A DNA stretch of 64,000 bases. Source: Marvinbryantia formatexigens (GTDB lineage Bacteria > Bacillota > Clostridia > Oscillospirales > Ruminococcaceae). The first letter of the stretch is position 1. Every line of letters starts with the position of its first letter. The stretch lies in the NCBI GenBank assembly GCA_021771035.1, contig JAETPU010000009.1:62001-126000 (forward strand), in the 5' to 3' direction. The notes below the pieces were generated by a model, which saw only the letters and a program-made list of their open reading frames with translations, was not told the origin of the DNA and made no database searches. This document shows, piece by piece, positions 39,769 to 55,490 of this stretch. The position numbers were made by a program, and so were the translations under genes.

Positions 39769-42015
39769 TTATTTCCTCGATATGGTAATGGTCTGACCCG
39801 CTTTCAGGGTGACACACAGAATGTCCTTCTCCCGGCATACGGCATACTCCAAGGAACAGGAGAACCCTTCCGGGAAGGGGCTGCGCAGCCGGTAACAACC
39901 ATCATGACAGGCGCTCAGCGTGATGGAGTTTACCGCGCCGCCGCACATGGAGGCGCTCACCAGCACTCCATTGGGGCCGCGGAACTGTTCAAAGGAGACT
40001 TCGCCCTCGTGCCACTGCTTTGGAATTGCCGGGAAAAACTCCAGCAGATCCCGCTGTGTGCCCAAGAGCATCTCCTGCAATGCGTCCGCCGCCGCCATGT
40101 TGGCCTCCAGGGTGAAGGGGCGGTAGTGGTACTTAGAGAGGCCCCGGCGCTGATAATCCCCGTTGAGGTGGAACCCGTTGGGGGAACAGAAATTCTCCCA
40201 GAACAGCTTGAGCTGGTAGGCCGCTCCCTCGCCGTTATGCTGCATACAGTAGAACGCGGACATCCACGGGAAGGAAAATCCCACCCAGTTTCCGGTTCCC
40301 AGCACCTCCAGGTTCTCCACCGAGGCATCGATGACGGCTCGATCCGCCTCATCCTCATAGTGCAGCTGCCGCAGGGGATACACCGCCATCATGTGGGAAT
40401 GGTGCCGGTGGGATTCCGTCAGGGATTCATCCGGCGAGAGCATCAGGACGTTTCTCTCGTTGACCGGCAGCTGGGGCAGGGCGTTTAAAATTTCCTGCCA
40501 GCGGTTCTCCTCGCCGGTGCCAAGCTGGCGGGCGAAGCGCACCAGCTGGGTAAACAGATAGCGCAGCAGGGAGAGATCATAGGTGCTGTTGGGGGTTACC
40601 CAGGCATTACTGGTATTGTCATGGATTTCCGGAGAGCTGGACACCGGCAGCACCAGCTGGCCCTCCTCATTTTTTTCCAGCAGCCCTTCCAGGCACTCGC
40701 CGGTGAGCTTCAGGTACGGATAGGCCCGCTCCCTGAGGAAAGTTTCGTCCCCAGTCAGGGTGTAGTGGCGCTCAAACAGCTGGCAGAGCCACAGCTGGTT
40801 GGTGGGGCTGTAGGAATACATACACCACCCGCCCATGGGCTTGCCCTGGATGGTCATAATAGAGGGCATACAGATGCCGGGCGTCCCATAAAACTCCCGG
40901 GCAAAGGCCTTTCCCTCATCCAGAAGGCCCCACAAAAAGTCCAGAAAGCTCTCGCCCGCCGCCAGATGGTTGGCCTTCAGATAGCTGGCATAGCACAGCT
41001 GGGTGTTTAAGTCGTTGTGGTAATCCCCCTTCCAGGGCGGCAGCTCGCCGTTATCCGCTGTCCATACGCCCTGCAGCGGCATGGGCGGGCAGCCCTTTCG
41101 GGAACAGGCCCCCAGCAGATAGTTGGTCCGGTACCAATTCACCTCAAAGAGCTCGTCCGGCAGGGTGACGGCGCTTTCAGACCAATACTGCTCCCACCAT
41201 CCGCGGTGCTCCAGATAACAGGCGTCATACCCGGCGTCCAGGCTCCGGCGCAAAGTATCCAGGGCCTGCTCCCGCCAGTTTTCGCCGTCCAGGCTGGCGG
41301 CCACCGTATAGGCTATCAGCGTTTTTCCGTCCTGTTCCCGCATATCCAGCCAGATTCCATAGGTCAGCTGTTCATCCACCTGCTGTTCGAACCAGCGAAG
41401 GGTTTTATGCTGTCCAAACACCGGCGGCGCATAGCACAGAAACTTGAGCGACCCGGCGGACACCGATTCCTCTCCCTCTTCGTTTTCCTGATTTTCACAG
41501 GTTTTGACGCCGAATTGGGGATTCTCCAGGCGAACCGAAAAACTGCCGGCAGGGCAGCTCAGCCGGATGAGCCCAACCGGGGCCACGGCGCTCAAAAAGC
41601 TCTCCAGGACAATGGGGGACTGGCCAATTTTAACGCAGGCATGGGCATCGGCCAGGTGCAGCCGGGAGGATACCGGCAGACCGGGGGCAAACTGGAGCAC
41701 CAGCTTTCCCGCCGGCAGCTTGGTGGGCGCCGCGTGGCGGTACGGGGCGTCAAAAAGCTCCAGCTGCGTGTGCATATCGCCGTCTCTGGCGGCCTGCACT
41801 AAATTTTTAAAGCGGTACCGCTCATCCGAGAGTTCCGGAGCCGGAGTATTGTCCCATAAATCGCCCCGGTCCAGGCTCAGGCGCAGCGCATCGGAGGCCC
41901 CCCAGATGAGGCAGCCCATCTTTCCGTTTCCCAGCGGCAGGGCTTCATCCCAGCTGGCAATGGCTTTTTTGGCCAGAATATCGCAGTTCTCCTTGGGCAG
42001 CTTATATGATTTCAT
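39769..42015 (-). CDS. Glycoside hydrolase family 95 (alpha-L-fucosidase / alpha-L-galactosidase type)
   Basis: A 748-residue inverting enzyme of GH95. The N-terminal beta domain begins AIASWDEALPLGNGKMGCLIWG, a family signature, and the (alpha/alpha)6 domain carries GDYHNDLNTQLCYASYLKANH, corresponding to the catalytic N-x-N-type motif. A later SSPEIHDNTSNAWVTPNSTYD segment and TESHRHHSHMMAVYPL are also typical. GH95 members cleave alpha-1,2-L-fucose or alpha-L-galactose; which one cannot be read here. Start ATG 42015, RBS GGGAGGAAC. No signal peptide, so it acts on imported oligosaccharides. Confidence 0.92.
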   Translation of the reverse strand: MKSYKLPKENCDILAKKAIASWDEALPLGNGKMGCLIWGASDALRLSLDRGDLWDNTPAPELSDERYRFKNLVQAARDGDMHTQLELFDAPYRHAAPTKLPAGKLVLQFAPGLPVSSRLHLADAHACVKIGQSPIVLESFLSAVAPVGLIRLSCPAGSFSVRLENPQFGVKTCENQENEEGEESVSAGSLKFLCYAPPVFGQHKTLRWFEQQVDEQLTYGIWLDMREQDGKTLIAYTVAASLDGENWREQALDTLRRSLDAGYDACYLEHRGWWEQYWSESAVTLPDELFEVNWYRTNYLLGACSRKGCPPMPLQGVWTADNGELPPWKGDYHNDLNTQLCYASYLKANHLAAGESFLDFLWGLLDEGKAFAREFYGTPGICMPSIMTIQGKPMGGWCMYSYSPTNQLWLCQLFERHYTLTGDETFLRERAYPYLKLTGECLEGLLEKNEEGQLVLPVSSSPEIHDNTSNAWVTPNSTYDLSLLRYLFTQLVRFARQLGTGEENRWQEILNALPQLPVNERNVLMLSPDESLTESHRHHSHMMAVYPLRQLHYEDEADRAVIDASVENLEVLGTGNWVGFSFPWMSAFYCMQHNGEGAAYQLKLFWENFCSPNGFHLNGDYQRRGLSKYHYRPFTLEANMAAADALQEMLLGTQRDLLEFFPAIPKQWHEGEVSFEQFRGPNGVLVSASMCGGAVNSITLSACHDGCYRLRSPFPEGFSCSLEYAVCREKDILCVTLKAGQTITISRK

Positions 42016-42111
42016 CTTTGTTCCTCCCAATTTGTTGTTATTTGGGCCTGTCGATTCAGAAGCATTTTGAATTGCGGCGCAGAATGCCCCCTTAGCTTCG
42101 GACAGGCTCCA

Positions 42112-44271
42112 TCAGGCATCCTGGTCCGCCAGCGTAACCGGCAGGCACAGCACCTCCATCGGCTGCAGCTTCAAACCCGAAAAGGTCCGCGTGTTGGCGC
42201 CCACGGTGATTGTGACGTCGGTTTCATTGGGCGCGGAATACAGGTTCAGTACAAAGGCCATGGCCTTCTCCCCGTCCCGGCGCAGCACTGCCCACACACT
42301 GGGGTTGGAGGTGCTGATGCAGCGGGAGGCGGCGGGTTTTCCACACCGGGAAAGCAGGCCGGTTAAAATCTCCCCGTGCTCCAGCTTGCAGTACTCCCAA
42401 TCCAGGCCCAAAAACACCGCTTTTCCACCGCCGGGGAAGGCTTTTTCCCAACAGAAAACCCCGCCGTTTTTCTCATCCCAGCCTATGGTACGCGCCCCCA
42501 GGGGAGCTTCCTCCACCGTGTAGACCCGGGACTTGGAGCAGGGGATATCCTGCATTGCATCCATCATTAAGACAGGGGCGTAGCGGCGGTCGTTGGTGGG
42601 AATTTTACTGCCTAAAAAGTCCGCCAAGACAGTGCAGGGCGCGCCGGTTTCGTCTGTCTGGGGAAGGGTGGGGGCGAGCACCAGCTTTCCGCCCGCCTTT
42701 AGAAACGCCACCAGCTTTTCCTGCAGGGAGCGTTCCATCCCCGAAAACACCGCCAGCATCAGGGGCTTGTCTGTGGGCAGCTCCCCAGAGAGCTCCACCA
42801 GCTGGGGAGAATACGAGGTCCCAAAGGCGGTGAGCAGAATGCCGTTGCGGGTGAGTTCCCATGCCTTTGCCCGGCTGACGCCTGAGGCACTGTAAAAGGA
42901 GCTGCGGGTGGACTCCCAATCCAGCCCCACATAGAAGTCCGCTTCCATTCCGGCCCCTGCCAGCCACTCATTTTCATGGAGAAAGGCGTGGTATTCCCGG
43001 ATGATTTCATAGGAGGGACGCACTTCCCCCGCAGCGGAAACAGGCGCGCAGAAGTCGTAGTACCGGCCGTTGGAACCCAGGTGGAAGGGGTTTTCCCCTC
43101 CGGTGAAAATATAGTAGTTATGCCCCTTCATGCCCAGGGCCGTGTTGGCATAGTAGGCGGCCTTCAGATCTCCGGGCGCGATGGGCGGGAATTCGGAGGG
43201 GCTGCCCCCGGGGAGCTCAAACACCGTGGGCGGATAGCCCATCAGGCGCAGCATTTCATTGGAATAAAAGCAGCGCAGGGCATATTGAGGCGTGGGGTTA
43301 TTCTGCTCCCAGCCGATATTCAGGTTGTAATAATGGTCGCTGCCCAGAAGGAACCCCTCTCCCAGCGCGTCCCGGATCTCCAAAAAGGTGCTGTTGGCGT
43401 TGGGATTGGGGGAATTGTGCACGATGGGAACCTGCATTCCCAATTCCCGCAGCCAGCCGCACAGAATTTGGGCATATCGGGCGGCGGCGGAAAAATAAAA
43501 GTCCTGATAATCCTTGAGCCTGCGGGACTGGGTGGCGCAGCGCGCAGGGGGATGAATGGGGAAAACCTCCTCAAAACTCCCATAACCGCTCTCATAGGCG
43601 GCGTTCAGGCTCCCGATGGTATCATAGCGTTCCCTTAAAAAGCTGGGCCAGGCCCCGCCGGGCTCCCCAATTCCCATGGCCTGGCGGTTGCAGTCATAGG
43701 CGTCTGTAAACCAGTAGTGGATACCCATGAGCTCGTTGTCGAACTGCACCATGGCGATGGGGCCGTCGTGATCCACCGTATAGCGGGCCAAAATGGGAAT
43801 GACCGCCTCATACCACCGCCGGGCCTTTTCTAAAAATACCGGATGCAGGTAGGAGACTGAAATTTCATTGACGATCTCCCCCTCAGGATTGCGGGCCAAA
43901 ATCTGCGGATATTCGGTCACCAGCCATTCGGGAAGGCCGCTGTACTTCATCTCCGAATACTGGTAGGGCCCCGGACGCACCAAAACAAACAAGTCCAAAC
44001 GCCGGCACAGCTGCAAAAAGCCCTCCAAGTCCCTCGCCGGGCAGTCGGAAAAGGCAAAGCTCCCCTCCTGGGGCTCGTGAAGTTCCCAGGGAACATAGGT
44101 GGCAATGCAGTTCCCTCCCGCTTTTTTCCAAAGGAGCAGCCGCCGCTCCCAGTCCTGACGGGGAACCCGGAAATAGTGAAATTCCCCGCAGCAGAGCAGC
44201 TTCTTTTCCCCGTTAATCCAATAGGCGCCCGCGGCATCCCATCGAATGCCCCGCTGTACCTGATTTTCCAT
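42112..44271 (-). CDS. GH35-like beta-galactosidase
   Basis: A 719-residue clan-A glycosidase. Residues 20-120 show the GH35 start: CCGEFHYFRVPRQDWERRLLLWKKAG, NCIATYVPWELHEP and LVRPGPYQYSEMKYSGLPEWL. Asn179-Glu180 in MVQFDNEL is the likely acid/base, and Glu352 in TVFELPGGSP the likely nucleophile; both contexts diverge from standard beta-galactosidases, so specificity is uncertain. The C-terminal half has a glutamine-amidotransferase-like Rossmann segment (KPLMLAVFSGMERSLQEKLVAFLKAGGKLVLAP), also seen in GH42-type enzymes. Start ATG 44271 by position of AAAGGAT. Cytosolic; second gene of the operon. Confidence 0.85.
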   Translation of the reverse strand: MENQVQRGIRWDAAGAYWINGEKKLLCCGEFHYFRVPRQDWERRLLLWKKAGGNCIATYVPWELHEPQEGSFAFSDCPARDLEGFLQLCRRLDLFVLVRPGPYQYSEMKYSGLPEWLVTEYPQILARNPEGEIVNEISVSYLHPVFLEKARRWYEAVIPILARYTVDHDGPIAMVQFDNELMGIHYWFTDAYDCNRQAMGIGEPGGAWPSFLRERYDTIGSLNAAYESGYGSFEEVFPIHPPARCATQSRRLKDYQDFYFSAAARYAQILCGWLRELGMQVPIVHNSPNPNANSTFLEIRDALGEGFLLGSDHYYNLNIGWEQNNPTPQYALRCFYSNEMLRLMGYPPTVFELPGGSPSEFPPIAPGDLKAAYYANTALGMKGHNYYIFTGGENPFHLGSNGRYYDFCAPVSAAGEVRPSYEIIREYHAFLHENEWLAGAGMEADFYVGLDWESTRSSFYSASGVSRAKAWELTRNGILLTAFGTSYSPQLVELSGELPTDKPLMLAVFSGMERSLQEKLVAFLKAGGKLVLAPTLPQTDETGAPCTVLADFLGSKIPTNDRRYAPVLMMDAMQDIPCSKSRVYTVEEAPLGARTIGWDEKNGGVFCWEKAFPGGGKAVFLGLDWEYCKLEHGEILTGLLSRCGKPAASRCISTSNPSVWAVLRRDGEKAMAFVLNLYSAPNETDVTITVGANTRTFSGLKLQPMEVLCLPVTLADQDA

Positions 44272-44383
44272 CTTGCGTCCATCCTTTCCTTCAGTCCCGC
44301 AGGCCCGCACCATCCCTACCGCCAAGCAGGCAGGCGTGCCTCTGGGGACTCATCGAGCGTCCTTTTATCTACTTTCCCGCCGT

Positions 44384-46303
44384 TCATTCCATCTCAAAGG
44401 GGCATTCCTCAGGCGGGAAGAAAACCGTCTTTTCCTCCCCCGGCATCAGGTGGATTTTCTCAAAGCCGCACAGCTGGGGATGCCCGTTTACCCGCCCGAA
44501 CTGCAGGACGCAGTAGTCTGTCTCATAGTCCCCGGCATTTTTGACCAGGGCCTTCCAGGGGGACAGCCAGTGCTCCTCAATTTTGGAATAGGTGAGCCCG
44601 TGCCCAAAGGGATACACCACCGGGCCATCATAATACCGGTAGGTGCGCGAGCGCATGGAGTAGTCCTCAAAGGGCGGCAGATCCTGGGCGGACCGGTAAA
44701 AAGTCACCGGAAGCCTGCCGCTGGGCGACACCTGTCCATAGAGAATCTGCGCCAGGGCTTCCCCGCCCAACGCGCCCGGATAAAAGCACTGCAGAACCGC
44801 ATTGCAGTCCCGGTCCTGCTGGGATAAATTTATGCAGCTCCCGCTGATATTCACAAACACCATGGGCTTGCCGAGCTCTCTGAGGGCCTCGAAAAGTGTT
44901 TTTTGAACCTGGGGCAGCTCCAAATCCCGCTTGTCGCCGTAATAATCGTTCTGAGCGTCCCCTTCCTCGCCCTCGATGCTTGGGGAAAGCCCCATGCACA
45001 CAACAATCACCTGCGCCTGCCGCGCCGCCGCCAGCGCCTCGTCGAGCCGCAGGGCGTCCCAGGACGGTCCGGGAGAACGGGACAGAGCGCTGCCGGGGGC
45101 ATACTCCACCCGACCCTGACTGAGCTGCAAAATGCCCTGCAGCGGCGTTACCCAGCGGGACGGAATTCCGTTATAGTTGCCCAGCAGGACTTCTTTTTCA
45201 TCCGCATTGGGGCCAATCACCGCCACATGGACGTCCGGCTTCAGAGGAAGAATCCCATCATTTTTAAGCAGGACAATGCTCTCCTGCGCCATTTTCAGGT
45301 TGAGCGCCTGGTGCTTGGGCGAATCTACCACCTCATAGGGGATGGCGTGATAGGGGCAGGCTTCGTCAAACATTCCCAAGCGCATCCGGGCGGCAAACAG
45401 GCGCACCACCGCTTCGGTGATCGTATCCTCATCTATGAGATTCATCCCCACCGCGGCCTTGAGCCACTGGTAGGCCACTCCGCAGTTGAGCTGGCAGCCG
45501 TTTTTCACCGCCAAGGCGGCGGACTGGGCGTCGTTTTCGGTGACATGGTGGTTTTTGGCAATATCACAGATGGCCCCGCAATCCGAAACCACATAGCCGT
45601 CAAAGCCGAACTCCCCATACAGGATTTTTTGGAGCAGTGTGGGGCTGGCGCAGCAGGCCTCGCCGTTGACCCGGTTATAGGCCCCCATTACAGCCGAGGG
45701 ATCCGCGTGCCGGATACAGTAGCGAAACGCCCACAGGTAGCTCTCAAAGAGATCCTCCTGCCCTACCTTGGCATCAAAGCCATGGCGCAGCCCTTCGGGG
45801 CCGCTGTGCACGGCATAGTGCTTGAGGGTGGCGTCCACCTTACGCCAGACCGGGTGCTCCCCCTGCAGCCCCCGGACAAAGGCCGTGCCCATACGGGCGG
45901 TGAGAAGCGGATCCTCCCCATAGGTCTCCTGCCCGCGCCCCCAGCGGGGATCCCGGAACAGGTTGATGTTGGGGGACCAGTAGGTAAGCCCCTGGTAGAT
46001 CCTGGTATCCCCGCCGTGCAGCCGGCGAAAGGCGTTATATTTGGCCCTGGCTTCGTCGGAGACGGCACAGGCCACCTCATACAGTAACTTTTCATTAAAG
46101 CTGGCAGCCAGCCCGATTGCCTGTGGAAACACCGTGGCGCAGCCCGCTCTGGCAACCCCATGCAGGCCCTCGTTCCACCAGTTGTAGGCCGGGATTCCCA
46201 GCCGCTCAATGGCCGGGGCATCATGCTGCATCTGGGCAATTTTTTCCCCCAGGGTCATCTGTGAAACCAGTTTTCTGGCGCGCTCAAGGAATTGCTGTTC
46301 CAT
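44384..46303 (-). CDS. Glycoside hydrolase family 3 enzyme (beta-xylosidase/beta-glucosidase type)
   Basis: A 639-residue retaining beta-glycosidase. The TIM-barrel domain shows MTLGEKIAQMQ, RLGIPAYNWWNEGLHGVARAG, SPNINLFRDPRWGRGQETYGEDP, LKHYAVHSGPE and the nucleophile Asp in YVVSDCGAI. The second domain carries GPNADEKEVLLGNYNG and the probable acid/base Glu in SPSIEGEEGD. A short fibronectin-III-like end (GFEKIHLMPGEEKTVFF) is truncated relative to most members. The WNEGLHGVAR and YNRVNG signatures favour the beta-xylosidase branch. Start ATG 46303, RBS GGGGAG. First gene after the operon promoter. Cytosolic. Confidence 0.93.
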   Translation of the reverse strand: MEQQFLERARKLVSQMTLGEKIAQMQHDAPAIERLGIPAYNWWNEGLHGVARAGCATVFPQAIGLAASFNEKLLYEVACAVSDEARAKYNAFRRLHGGDTRIYQGLTYWSPNINLFRDPRWGRGQETYGEDPLLTARMGTAFVRGLQGEHPVWRKVDATLKHYAVHSGPEGLRHGFDAKVGQEDLFESYLWAFRYCIRHADPSAVMGAYNRVNGEACCASPTLLQKILYGEFGFDGYVVSDCGAICDIAKNHHVTENDAQSAALAVKNGCQLNCGVAYQWLKAAVGMNLIDEDTITEAVVRLFAARMRLGMFDEACPYHAIPYEVVDSPKHQALNLKMAQESIVLLKNDGILPLKPDVHVAVIGPNADEKEVLLGNYNGIPSRWVTPLQGILQLSQGRVEYAPGSALSRSPGPSWDALRLDEALAAARQAQVIVVCMGLSPSIEGEEGDAQNDYYGDKRDLELPQVQKTLFEALRELGKPMVFVNISGSCINLSQQDRDCNAVLQCFYPGALGGEALAQILYGQVSPSGRLPVTFYRSAQDLPPFEDYSMRSRTYRYYDGPVVYPFGHGLTYSKIEEHWLSPWKALVKNAGDYETDYCVLQFGRVNGHPQLCGFEKIHLMPGEEKTVFFPPEECPFEME

Positions 46304-46395
46304 GGTAACTCCCCTTTTTTCCAAATCCGGACGGTACTAAATTTCCAGGTTATCCTCCGGCGGCGAACCTGTCAAAAACCGCACAATTCCTTAAC

Positions 46396-50799: not shown

Positions 50800-51561
50800 T
50801 TACAAAAACAGTTCATTTTCCTTCCTCTGGCTGCAGGCTTTCTTCATCTTCTGAGCCGCAGCCTCCAAAGCCGCCGGGCTGACTTCTCTGGCGTGGCTGG
50901 GGCACACGCCGATACAGCGCATACAGGAGATGCAGGCGCTCTCATCCACTCCAGAGGGATCCTCCATGGGAATTGCCCGCACCGGGCAGCTTTTGGCGCA
51001 CATACCGCACCGGGTGCATTCGCCGCCGCCCCTGGGCTTAAAGGGGGTGCCGGCATATTCCCGGTAGGGCCGGGTTCCAGGCAGCGAGAGCCCCCGGCGG
51101 CCGCCAGCCTGGGCGGCAGTGAAAATTTTCTCCCCAAATTCCCGCAGCTGGGACATATCCCGGGCATCGGGGCGCCCAGCGGCAAACTGAGGAACAATAG
51201 AATGCTGCGCCACCGCCGCCACCGCGGCAATGCAATGGAAACCCGCGGCGGTGAGCGTGTCCTTTAACTCCAAAAGAGTGTCCTGGTAGGCGCGGTTCCC
51301 ATAGACACATACCAGCACGGCCATGGCCCCGTTTCCCCGCATTCTGCTCAGCCGCCGTACAGCCGGGCCGGGGACGCGCCCGCCATAGGAGGGCACCGCC
51401 ACAACACAGAGATCTTCCCGGGAAAACCGGAACTGGGAAAAATCAGCGCCGCTCTCACAGAGATCAATTTCCCTTCTGTGCGCGCAGCAGGACTGCATCA
51501 GAGCGTCCGCCGCCTTCTTGGTTCCCCCAGTGGGGCTGAACGTAATTTGACAGAAATTCAT
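50800..51561 (-). CDS. EFR1-type flavodoxin-like / 2x[4Fe-4S] ferredoxin protein
   Basis: A 253-residue cytosolic electron-transfer protein. The N-terminal flavodoxin-like domain has the phosphate loop FSPTGGTKKAADAL (residues 7-20) and VPSYGGRVPGPA. The C-terminus holds two 4Fe-4S clusters: CTRCGMCAKSCP and CISCMRCIGVCP (C-x2-C-x2-C-x3-C-P twice). This fusion is the EFR1 type common in Firmicutes; redox partners are unknown. Start ATG 51561, GGAGG 8 bp upstream. Stands alone. Confidence 0.92.
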   Translation of the reverse strand: MNFCQITFSPTGGTKKAADALMQSCCAHRREIDLCESGADFSQFRFSREDLCVVAVPSYGGRVPGPAVRRLSRMRGNGAMAVLVCVYGNRAYQDTLLELKDTLTAAGFHCIAAVAAVAQHSIVPQFAAGRPDARDMSQLREFGEKIFTAAQAGGRRGLSLPGTRPYREYAGTPFKPRGGGECTRCGMCAKSCPVRAIPMEDPSGVDESACISCMRCIGVCPSHAREVSPAALEAAAQKMKKACSQRKENELFL

Positions 51562-51631
51562 AGCATTTCCTCCCCCTGTCGCCTTGCCTTTATCAGCGCC
51601 AGGCACAAACCGTTTTTGGATTGCCGTCAGC

Positions 51632-51661
51632 AAAGCCCCAATGCAGCCGCATTGAGGCTTT
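51632..51661. other. 13-bp hairpin after the EIIC-EAL gene
   Basis: AAAGCCCCAATGC pairs with GCATTGAGGCTTT (one G-U on the RNA) around a four-base loop, with no long U-tract. It lies between the EIIC-EAL stop and the downstream ferredoxin start. Confidence 0.5.
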
Positions 51662-51706: not shown

Positions 51707-53842
51707 CTAGTCGGCCTGTTTTGAACCGGGCAGCGCCTCCCGCAAGCTGTCCAGCGGCACAGCTGGGCTGTACAGGTAGCCCTGATACAGCCGGCAGCCG
51801 GCCCCCTCTAAAATTTCCCGCTGCTGGGATGTCTCCACAAACTCCGCCAGGACCCGGATTCCAAAGCTGGCCGCCAATTCCGCAATGGAGGCCACAATCT
51901 CCAGGCTTCTGGGATTGCTGAGCACATTGCGGCTCAAAGAGCCATCCAGCTTGATGCAGTCGAACACATTGGTCTGCAGATATTTAATGGAGGTATTCCC
52001 CATGGAAAAATCATCGATGGCAAAGCAGTACCCCAGCCCATGGATCCGCATGAGCCGTTCCAGAAGATCCTGATCCAGGTGGATGGCGGCCTGTTCGGTG
52101 ATTTCAATGCACAAATTCCGGGTATATTTGGGGTACCGCTGGTGCATCTCACTGAGAAAACGTTCAAACTTCGCCGTCTGTATCGTCGTGCCCGTCACAT
52201 TCACCGAAATTTTCGCCTCCCGGCCCAATACATCCAGAAGCGGATCCATATCCTTGAGGACGCGGCGGAACACGCTTTCCTCCAACGCGGTGAGCATTCC
52301 GCTCTCCTCGGCAATTTGAATCATCAGCGGCGGGTATACCATCCCATACAGCGGGTGTTCCCAACGAAGCAGGGCCTCCGCGCCGATACAGACGCCTTGA
52401 CTGTCAAACTGGGGCTGGTAATAGAGCTTTGGCAGTTCCCTGGCGAGATGAAAACGAAGATCCTCCGCCAGCGCCTTGGATACAGTGCTGGTACTGTCCC
52501 GCAGGGCGAGCAGTTCCACCGGGCGCCGTTCGGCCTCGCTCTTTTGGAGAATCCGGATGAGCTTCTCCATACGCCAGTTGGCATTGCGCAGCTTTTCCTT
52601 ATCATACAGCCTGACAAACGGCCGGTAAATGAGCACTCCCAGCACGATATTCACCAGCTGCAGAATTGCCCCGCTGATGGAACCCGTGGCCAAATATCCT
52701 CCCAGCAGCACAGGCGTGGTCCATTCCACGGTGACGGCGGGAATGGGCACCAGGCCCAGCGCCATAGCAGCCCAGCTGGTGAAAACCATCATCAGCGGGG
52801 TCAGCACAAAGGGAATGAACAGAACCGGATTGAACACAATGGGCAGGCCAAATACCATGGGCTCGTTGATATTGAACAGCATAGGCAGTGCGGCAAACCG
52901 GGATAAATTCCTGTTGCTCCGCCGGCGGCTGAAAAGCAAAACCGCAATCAGCAGGCACACAGAGGTTCCGCAGCCGCCCATTGCCACGAACACATCAAAA
53001 AACGTCTTGCTGAAAATTTCGGTGGCCTGCCCGCCTGCGGCGATATTGCCGGCGTTGAGGGCCACCGCCGGGACAAAGAGGTGCTGGGTGACGGACTCCA
53101 GGACATCCGTGCCATGGATGCCGAAAAACCACAGCACATTGGACAGGAGCACAAACAGCAGCATACTGCCCAGGGAACGCCCCATATTGGAAAAGAAGCC
53201 GTTGATCAGATTGACAAACAACATCTGCGTACTGTGGACGCCGAACAGCTTCACCAGGCACAGATTGAGCACGGCAAACACCAAAATGACCAGGATGGCG
53301 GGAATAATCGTGGAGATGGCGCTGTTAAACTCCACATCCGCCCCGTCCGCATACAGGCGCACATGGCCGGTGAGGCGCCGGCTCAGCCAGCAATAGAGGG
53401 CAGACGCCCCCAAGGCGCAGATAATGGCGGTAAACATCCCCTTGACGCCGAACGCCTCCAGGGAAAAATTTTCGGATAAAAAGTCGCTGAGAATGCAAAA
53501 GCAGATAATTGACGTAAACAGCGGGCCGTAGTGGAACTGCTGGCTGTCCATCCTCTGCTGGGAATAGCAGATGGAGATAGACGCCGTCATATACAGCGCC
53601 ATAAACCCAAAGGTGGCGCTGTGAATCGCATTGAAAATGGTGTACAGGGTTCCGCTGAGAAACCCGGTGATAAACTCCTGATACGCCGGAATGGGCAGGG
53701 AGCGCAGCACCAGTGCAAAGGAACCGATTAGCAGTACCGGAATCGTCATGACCAGGCCGCTGCGGATACACTGCAGCAGTGTGGAATTGTCCATCCAATT
53801 ATAGAGGGCGCGCATCGGATTGCCGCGGTTGGGAGTTTTCAT
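51707..53842 (-). CDS. PTS EIIC (lactose/cellobiose type) fused to EAL c-di-GMP phosphodiesterase domain
   Basis: A 711-residue membrane protein. Residues 11-415 are a PTS EIIC of the lactose/cellobiose family with about ten helices; substrate-site segments FGIHGTD (His243), GGCGTSV and FNINEPMVFGLPIVFNP (Glu327) are intact. A linker of about 50 residues leads to an EAL domain (residues 468-700) with all expected catalytic residues: E489-A-L-L-R493, Asn548, Glu580 and Glu583, Asp610-Asp611 (DDFSMG), Lys631, Glu667/670 and Gln687. No EIIA, EIIB or GGDEF is fused or adjacent. It probably binds an oligosaccharide and controls c-di-GMP breakdown. First ATG used; its RBS is weak. Confidence 0.93.
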   Translation of the reverse strand: MKTPNRGNPMRALYNWMDNSTLLQCIRSGLVMTIPVLLIGSFALVLRSLPIPAYQEFITGFLSGTLYTIFNAIHSATFGFMALYMTASISICYSQQRMDSQQFHYGPLFTSIICFCILSDFLSENFSLEAFGVKGMFTAIICALGASALYCWLSRRLTGHVRLYADGADVEFNSAISTIIPAILVILVFAVLNLCLVKLFGVHSTQMLFVNLINGFFSNMGRSLGSMLLFVLLSNVLWFFGIHGTDVLESVTQHLFVPAVALNAGNIAAGGQATEIFSKTFFDVFVAMGGCGTSVCLLIAVLLFSRRRSNRNLSRFAALPMLFNINEPMVFGLPIVFNPVLFIPFVLTPLMMVFTSWAAMALGLVPIPAVTVEWTTPVLLGGYLATGSISGAILQLVNIVLGVLIYRPFVRLYDKEKLRNANWRMEKLIRILQKSEAERRPVELLALRDSTSTVSKALAEDLRFHLARELPKLYYQPQFDSQGVCIGAEALLRWEHPLYGMVYPPLMIQIAEESGMLTALEESVFRRVLKDMDPLLDVLGREAKISVNVTGTTIQTAKFERFLSEMHQRYPKYTRNLCIEITEQAAIHLDQDLLERLMRIHGLGYCFAIDDFSMGNTSIKYLQTNVFDCIKLDGSLSRNVLSNPRSLEIVASIAELAASFGIRVLAEFVETSQQREILEGAGCRLYQGYLYSPAVPLDSLREALPGSKQAD

Positions 53843-53921: not shown

Positions 53922-53951
53922 ATTATATTCCCCAACCGGCGTTTCCGTCAA
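53922..53951 (-). promoter_or_regulatory. Promoter of the EIIC-EAL gene
   Basis: -35 TTGACG (53946-53951), 18 bp, perfect -10 TATAAT (53922-53927) on the minus strand; leader of about 75 nt. Confidence 0.75.
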
Positions 53952-54428: not shown

Positions 54429-55490
54429 CTACCAGGAGTATTTGCCGTATTTTTTTACGGCGTGCGCCAGGGCCTCGATATTTTCCCACGGAACCTCCGG
54501 CTCCAGAAGATGGGTGGGAGCCGCCACGAATCCGCCGCCCTTGCCCACAGTCTCGATCATGGTTTTCACGGTCTGCTCCACCTGCTGGGGCGTTCCGAAG
54601 GGCATGGTCGTCTGGGTTCCGATAGTTCCCCAAAAGGCCAGCTTATCCCCATAGAGTTCCTTTATCCTGATTGGATCCATACATTCCGGCTGAATCGGGT
54701 TCAAAATATCCACACCCACCTCAATGAGCTCGTCGATAATATCAAAGATGTTTCCATCGGAATGATAGTAGCACAGCACCTGGGGATTGGCCTGTTTTGC
54801 GGCCTGAATCACCGCCCTGGTGGTGGGTTTAATCCACCGACGCCACTGTTCCTTGCTCATCATCAGGGCATTCTGAGTGCCCACATCGTCTCCAAAAACA
54901 ATGATATCCACCCCGATTGCCGCCATTTTCGCCGCAATCTGCGCCTGAAACCGGGTCATTCTGTCCAGGCAGGCCGCAGCCATTTCCTCATCGGTAATCA
55001 TGTCGCACAGCAGGTTTTCCAGCCCCCGCAGATACCAGGTGTACTCAAACACCATAATACAGTGGAACATGGCGGCATAGCCTTCGTCGTGGATCCGCTG
55101 CACCTCCTGCTCCAGGCCCTCCCAGCGGTAATCCGCCAGCATATCCGGCAGCGGGAATTCGTAGACCTCCTCAGGCGTGGTGAAATCCTCCATGGGGTGG
55201 AGCATCTTGGTAAAGTGCTTGAAGCCGTGGGACTCCTGCCCCACTCCGTATTCGTCTATCACAGTATTGGCCGGCAGAGAGGGGTAATACCTGGAATAGT
55301 CCGCCGGGTGTCTGGAGGGGCGCAGATTGATATACCGCACCGGAATATCAAAATAAGACAGATAGTCCCTGGAGCCGGTACGGGCAAAAAAGTTGTTTTC
55401 CTGCTCCTGGCACAGGTTTAAAAACAGCGGTACATACTCGGGATTTTCCTTGCGGATTGCGCGCAGCAGGTTTTCTCTGGGTGTAAGCAT
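54429..55490 (-). CDS. Uroporphyrinogen decarboxylase (URO-D) superfamily protein
   Basis: A 353-residue TIM-barrel protein of the URO-D / corrinoid methyltransferase-like superfamily. It shows LTPRENLLRAIRKENPEYVP at the N-terminus, DVGTQNALMMSKEQWRRWIKP, CYYHSDGNIFDIIDELIEVGVDILNPIQPECMD (family H-x-x-G and NP-Q/E region), WGTIGTQTTMPFGTPQQVEQTV, and GGGFVAAPTHLLEPEVPWENIEAL. It lacks the heme-pathway context and active-site pattern of true HemE. Relatives often sit with AraC regulators and sugar genes in gut Clostridia. Reaction unknown. RBS AAAGGAGG. Downstream of an AraC gene. Confidence 0.88.
   Translation of the reverse strand: MLTPRENLLRAIRKENPEYVPLFLNLCQEQENNFFARTGSRDYLSYFDIPVRYINLRPSRHPADYSRYYPSLPANTVIDEYGVGQESHGFKHFTKMLHPMEDFTTPEEVYEFPLPDMLADYRWEGLEQEVQRIHDEGYAAMFHCIMVFEYTWYLRGLENLLCDMITDEEMAAACLDRMTRFQAQIAAKMAAIGVDIIVFGDDVGTQNALMMSKEQWRRWIKPTTRAVIQAAKQANPQVLCYYHSDGNIFDIIDELIEVGVDILNPIQPECMDPIRIKELYGDKLAFWGTIGTQTTMPFGTPQQVEQTVKTMIETVGKGGGFVAAPTHLLEPEVPWENIEALAHAVKKYGKYSW

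Follow-up and report, generated by a model that had tools for sequence, protein, structure and literature searches.

The gene at 51707-53842 of the window (the whole 64,000-nucleotide stretch of DNA that was analysed) is a single intact gene, which joins an EIIC membrane domain of the PTS to a full EAL domain. The preliminary description had placed a fusion of these two domains here. Its coordinates hold, but the gene is read from the minus strand; the plus strand contains six stops across the same interval. Both claimed domains are matched in a Pfam search of the 711-amino-acid product, PTS_EIIC at residues 27-349 (2.3e-33) and EAL at residues 466-693 (2.6e-54), each far above the cut-offs. 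The N-terminal part has the sequence features of the lactose/cellobiose family, these being an NCBIfam TIGR00410 match over the whole domain (residues 19-420, 257.9 bits against a cut-off of 236), the sugar-site histidine and the NINE glutamate. The nearest solved structure to this part is 3qnq (B. cereus ChbC), and the C-terminal part is nearest to many EAL domains. The features of the gene are as follows.

51707..53842, minus strand: EIIC-EAL fusion coding sequence, 711 amino acids, start at 53842; complete copies in at least 24 further genomes and at two additional loci
52583..53788, minus strand: EIIC membrane domain of the lactose/cellobiose family, residues 19-420 (TIGR00410 above cut-off, PF02378, 3qnq match)
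51764..52447, minus strand: EAL c-di-GMP phosphodiesterase domain with a complete catalytic set, residues 466-693
53315..53359, minus strand: TM4-TM5 loop, residues 162-176, between predicted helices 133-164 and 170-200
53114..53116, minus strand: codon of His243 in the EIIC G-[IVML]-H-G motif, invariant in 27/27 fusions
52862..52864, minus strand: codon of Glu327 in the EIIC NINE motif, invariant in 27/27 fusions
52448..52582, minus strand: linker, residues 421-465, from structure prediction and the fusion alignment
53922..53951, minus strand: sigma-70-like promoter, TTGACG-18-TATAAT, 11/12, by consensus match alone

The fusion is found among an EFR1-like ferredoxin gene (50800-51633), a P-type cation ATPase, a URO-D/MtaA-like protein and an AraC regulator. 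These neighbours were scanned with Pfam and NCBIfam and none is a PTS gene, as the claim that no EIIA or EIIB is adjacent had it. The promoter-like site matches the sigma-70 consensus at 11 of 12 positions and precedes the start by about 80 bases. Riboswitch control of the fusion gene was ruled out, there being no Rfam match near its start. Across 12 fusion loci no operon or neighbour is shared, and glycoside hydrolases occur only as scattered single neighbours (GH53 in L002, GH18 in L058/L059). Conserved neighbours that might reveal the ligand are therefore ruled out, and no ligand can be named from the loci.

Several other genes in the window are of interest in their own right. A NiCo riboswitch (RF02683, 50513-50663, minus strand, 38.5 bits, above gathering) lies directly upstream of the P-type cation ATPase gene (50241-47734, minus strand), which is a probable metal-responsive efflux pump. 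The URO-D/MtaA-like methyltransferase gene that neighbours the fusion (54429-55490, minus strand) has no recognised corrinoid partner in the ORFs scanned. A run of glycoside hydrolases, GH95, GH35/42 and GH3 (40001-46324, minus strand), points to beta-galactoside/fucoside degradation in a genome where no PF02302 EIIB or PF02255 EIIA was found. These genes, at 40.0-46.3 kb, are not adjacent to the fusion and are no proof of its ligand.

The architecture was surveyed across the Clostridia and is conserved in relatives. A protein search found the full-length fusion in 11/298 genomes of the same family, and a profile search found it in 15/391 genomes of the class, spread over about ten families; both counts include the window's own genome. 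Two additional fusions came from GTDB contigs (L001 and L002). An assembly artefact is ruled out because at least 24 other assemblies independently contain a full-length fusion. In phylogenetic trees the EIIC halves of the fusions form one group against the stand-alone EIICs (support 100/99), and the EAL halves also form one group (support 96/93). The two trees agree on the deep branching, with L030 and L065 branching first and L066 next. The sole apparent stand-alone EIIC within the fusion clade, L067, was rejected as such; it carries the fusion linker and its sequence ends where the contig end cuts the gene. Since each half forms one clade and the deep branches match, a single joining event followed by joint inheritance of the two parts is most likely. 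In the fusion tree, representatives of the window's family are dispersed, which suggests either horizontal transfer or many losses.

The key residues of both domains are invariant. EIIC His243 and Glu327 are identical in 27/27 full-length fusions, as are EAL residues E489, R493, N548, E580, E583, D610, D611, K631, E667 and Q687. Every key residue that had been named beforehand is therefore present and unvaried, with E583 in addition. The fusions are only about 35-50% identical overall and the closest relatives found are about 50% identical, so this invariance indicates strong constraint. A degenerate EAL domain is ruled out by the intact metal ligands and the ten catalytic residues shared by all 27 fusions. 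The metal, substrate and loop-6 anchor residues are all present, and these, together with the fold match to solved EAL structures, are what the domain shares with the EAL phosphodiesterases (PF00563); it is predicted to be catalytically competent. Its input differs from that of other EAL phosphodiesterases, being a transporter-derived EIIC rather than a PAS, CACHE, GAF, REC or similar domain.

PTS components were sought in carrier genomes with PF02378, PF02302, PF02255, EI (PF05524) and HPr, and the same searches gave the expected matches in the controls E. coli, B. subtilis and L. lactis. The window's genome, which is 100% complete, has no PF02378 EIIC besides the fusion, and the cognate EIIA and EIIB of a functional PTS permease were not found in it (PF02255 and PF02302, respectively). 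An ordinary transporter served by neighbouring EIIA and EIIB genes is thus ruled out, such genes being found neither beside the fusion nor, by these two families, elsewhere in the genome. One EI is present, with no PTS gene beside it, and there is a full-length HPr which retains the GLHARPA histidine and the regulatory serine stretch. The lactose/cellobiose-type EIIA (PF02255) is absent from 24/25 carriers and present in one. EI is present in 15/25 carriers and was not found in the other 10, eight of which are among the 19 carriers with a completeness of 90% or more; the single-contig genome G444 is one of those lacking EI. No PF02302 EIIB was found in 8/11 carriers examined, and in the remaining three the match lies within a frame of 640-677 amino acids which also holds another EIIC. 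Carriers without EI therefore have no working sugar PTS, and with EIIA missing from all carriers except one, PTS phosphoryl transfer to the EIIC sugar would not take place in many of them. The fused EIIC thus does not appear to be tied to PTS phosphotransfer. Evidence for a single, widespread EIIC-EAL clade that is apparently decoupled from the PTS is new.

Two high-completeness genomes in which no EI was found, G131 (carrying L046) and G116 (carrying L047), encode an HPr with an intact GLHARPA histidine. HPr in these genomes would have no phosphoryl donor; perhaps its role is in HPr-kinase/Crh-type regulation.

The EIIC domain has been remodelled at one loop. The 24 stand-alone EIICs nearest the query were used as a baseline, in which 46 positions are at least 80% conserved. 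The fusions have lost 12/46 of these positions. The losses include every one of the six conserved positions in the TM4-TM5 loop at residues 162-176 (K, P, V, P, V and F; hypergeometric P for the loop 1e-4) and both conserved N-terminal positions, P12 and A14, compared with 4/38 elsewhere, one of which is merely K to R. Positions 12 and 14 vary widely among the fusions, as expected under lost constraint. In the loop the stand-alone motif K-MP..VP..V...F has given way to a fusion-specific DG-A[DN]..F, which in the window's fusion is DG-AD..F, so that none of the six loop residues of a functional PTS permease is kept. The replacement falls on one branch of the tree, it is therefore one event and not many.

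Structure prediction places this loop between the TM4 and TM5 helices. The topology of the EIIC family is N-in, which puts the TM4-TM5 loop on the cytoplasmic side. The glucose-type EIIC, a related protein, has a cytoplasmic TM4-TM5 loop that extends over to the adjacent protomer (PMC12900739). In stand-alone EIICs of the present family the loop presumably helps EIIB to dock. The deepest fusions, L030 and L065, have less altered loops and both come from EI-positive genomes, which is consistent with a stepwise uncoupling from the PTS. The deepest-branching loci in general (L066 and L065/L030) have a less altered or different TM4-TM5 loop and are informative for the order in which PTS coupling was lost.

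The last predicted EIIC helix extends to residue 437, and a short helix leads into the EAL domain. In every fusion, 63-67 residues separate the last transmembrane helix from the EAL domain. Residues 439-451 of the linker form a low-confidence break in the predicted structure, which therefore does not show a rigid connection along the whole linker. When the model is superposed on 3qnq, its EIIC domain fits poorly (TM 0.47, rmsd 11), too poorly to support any statement on its conformation.

We think it likely that the fusion is a PTS-independent sugar receptor, derived from a lactose/cellobiose-type EIIC, which sets the rate of c-di-GMP hydrolysis by the EAL domain. ChbC and MalT transport by an elevator mechanism (PMC7329351). 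A sugar, probably a beta-linked disaccharide to judge by the EIIC family, would bind at the conserved EIIC site (His243 and NINE-Glu327) and cause either an elevator-type movement of the transport domain or the arrest of that movement. The signal would travel through the remodelled TM4-TM5 loop and the final helix to the EAL domain and set its hydrolysis rate, and phosphoryl transfer from EI, HPr, EIIA and EIIB would not be needed. Enzyme activity, the identity of the sugar, the direction of control, the coupling path and any remaining sugar passage are points that we infer. The preliminary description had proposed a transporter turned sensor, driven by sugar binding or by phosphorylation-linked movement. 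The first idea is well supported, cognate PTS parts being absent in most carriers while the sugar-site residues are kept; the second finds no support, with EIIA missing from 24/25 carriers and EI from 10/25. Counting against the receptor reading, the window's own genome has both EI and a full-length HPr, and the retained Glu327 could mean that a phosphorylating or transport function persists in PTS-bearing carriers. A stronger form of the hypothesis is offered more tentatively. Here the clade would consist of non-transporting, PTS-independent receptors, in which the presumed EIIB loop has become an output-coupling element, the bulky aromatic residues F172, F217, F230 and F256 may hold back the elevator, and c-di-GMP turnover depends on sugar occupancy even without EI.

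Three other explanations were considered. The EIIB of another system might phosphorylate the EIIC-bound sugar, so that PTS flux or phosphorylation state controls the EAL domain. The kept EIIC histidine and glutamate would fit such a PTS-coupled sensor, as would the EI and HPr of the window's genome, the presence of EI in 15/25 carriers, and the origin of the basal, less altered loops of L030 and L065 in EI-positive genomes. We nevertheless regard it as unlikely: a lactose-type EIIA occurs in just one of the 25 carriers and 10 lack EI, eight of 11 have no PF02302 EIIB and the other three have it within one frame along with another EIIC, and the loop motif shared by stand-alone EIICs is gone. 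EIIC is also not known to be a phospho-acceptor protein. Control might instead run in the reverse direction, the EAL domain sensing or degrading c-di-GMP to gate sugar passage through a c-di-GMP-controlled facilitator. Facilitated diffusion is compatible with the intact sugar-site residues and general fold motifs of EIIC, but a full catalytic set that is invariant in 27/27 fusions would be superfluous for a mere c-di-GMP-binding switch, and no sugar-metabolic operon or kinase gene is consistently beside the fusion in the loci read; this makes the reverse direction rather improbable. That EIIC is a mere membrane anchor or dimerisation platform for a constitutive EAL domain would suit a solitary gene with its own promoter-like site and no conserved neighbours, but is very improbable, as an anchor needs none of the EIIC signature residues (His243, NINE-Glu327 and others) that are invariant at about 35-50% identity.

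The proposed receptor resembles several known systems. It shares a whole-domain match, the GIHG histidine and the NINE glutamate with the PTS lactose/cellobiose EIICs (TIGR00410; ChbC, 3qnq), but it lacks a cognate EIIA and EIIB and its carriers often lack EI; it has also lost the TM4-TM5 loop motif and the N-terminal P.A, and gained a C-terminal EAL domain. By analogy, the closest functional precedent is Ks-Amt5, in which a transporter module fused to a histidine kinase binds ammonium without translocation and drives the kinase (PMC5764959). In both a whole transporter would be reused as the receptor for a fused cytoplasmic signalling enzyme, and in both a cytoplasmic loop is suspected in coupling. 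Ks-Amt5 combines ammonium with a kinase, whereas EIIC-EAL would combine a presumed sugar with a c-di-GMP phosphodiesterase, and no homology is claimed. In V. cholerae EIIA-Glc and PdeS tie sugar status to a c-di-GMP phosphodiesterase (cited in PMC8846402); as presented in that citation, this system acts through phosphorylated EIIA and protein-protein contact and requires an active PTS, unlike the mechanism proposed for EIIC-EAL.

A survey of C. difficile from 2011 reportedly lists EIIC-EAL proteins, and our literature search found no experimental study of this architecture. The expectation that similar architectures exist in databases is borne out by a 2022 review, which catalogues PTS_EIIC with c-di-GMP enzymes as rare and treats PTS_EIIC as a phosphoreceiver (PMC8846402). 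The Pfam combination is the same, but the genome content of the fusion clade argues against a phosphoreceiver role, and because EI is absent from some carriers the statement cannot hold for those. If the receptor reading is right, the published description of such EIIC domains would need correcting for the EIIC-EAL clade. In the class to which the window's genome belongs, only a minority of c-di-GMP enzymes have a known input, and the fusion would provide a direct one-protein link there from external sugar to c-di-GMP. It would also clearly exemplify a PTS permease that became a receptor and has outlived the PTS itself. The parts of EIIC that serve EIIB could then be told from those that serve sugar binding by experiment, and a modular sugar sensor would be on offer.

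GGDEF proteins are present in 25/25 carriers; each carrier therefore probably makes c-di-GMP and could plausibly use it in signalling. Two genomes that belong to one genus, G461 and G576, have a GGDEF gene directly upstream of the fusion, with overlap between the open frames of the two genes.

L055, 191-1495: upstream GGDEF gene, frame overlapping the EIIC-EAL gene
L057, 3615-4889: upstream GGDEF gene, frame overlapping the EIIC-EAL gene

This arrangement suggests a cyclase/phosphodiesterase pair in these two genomes.
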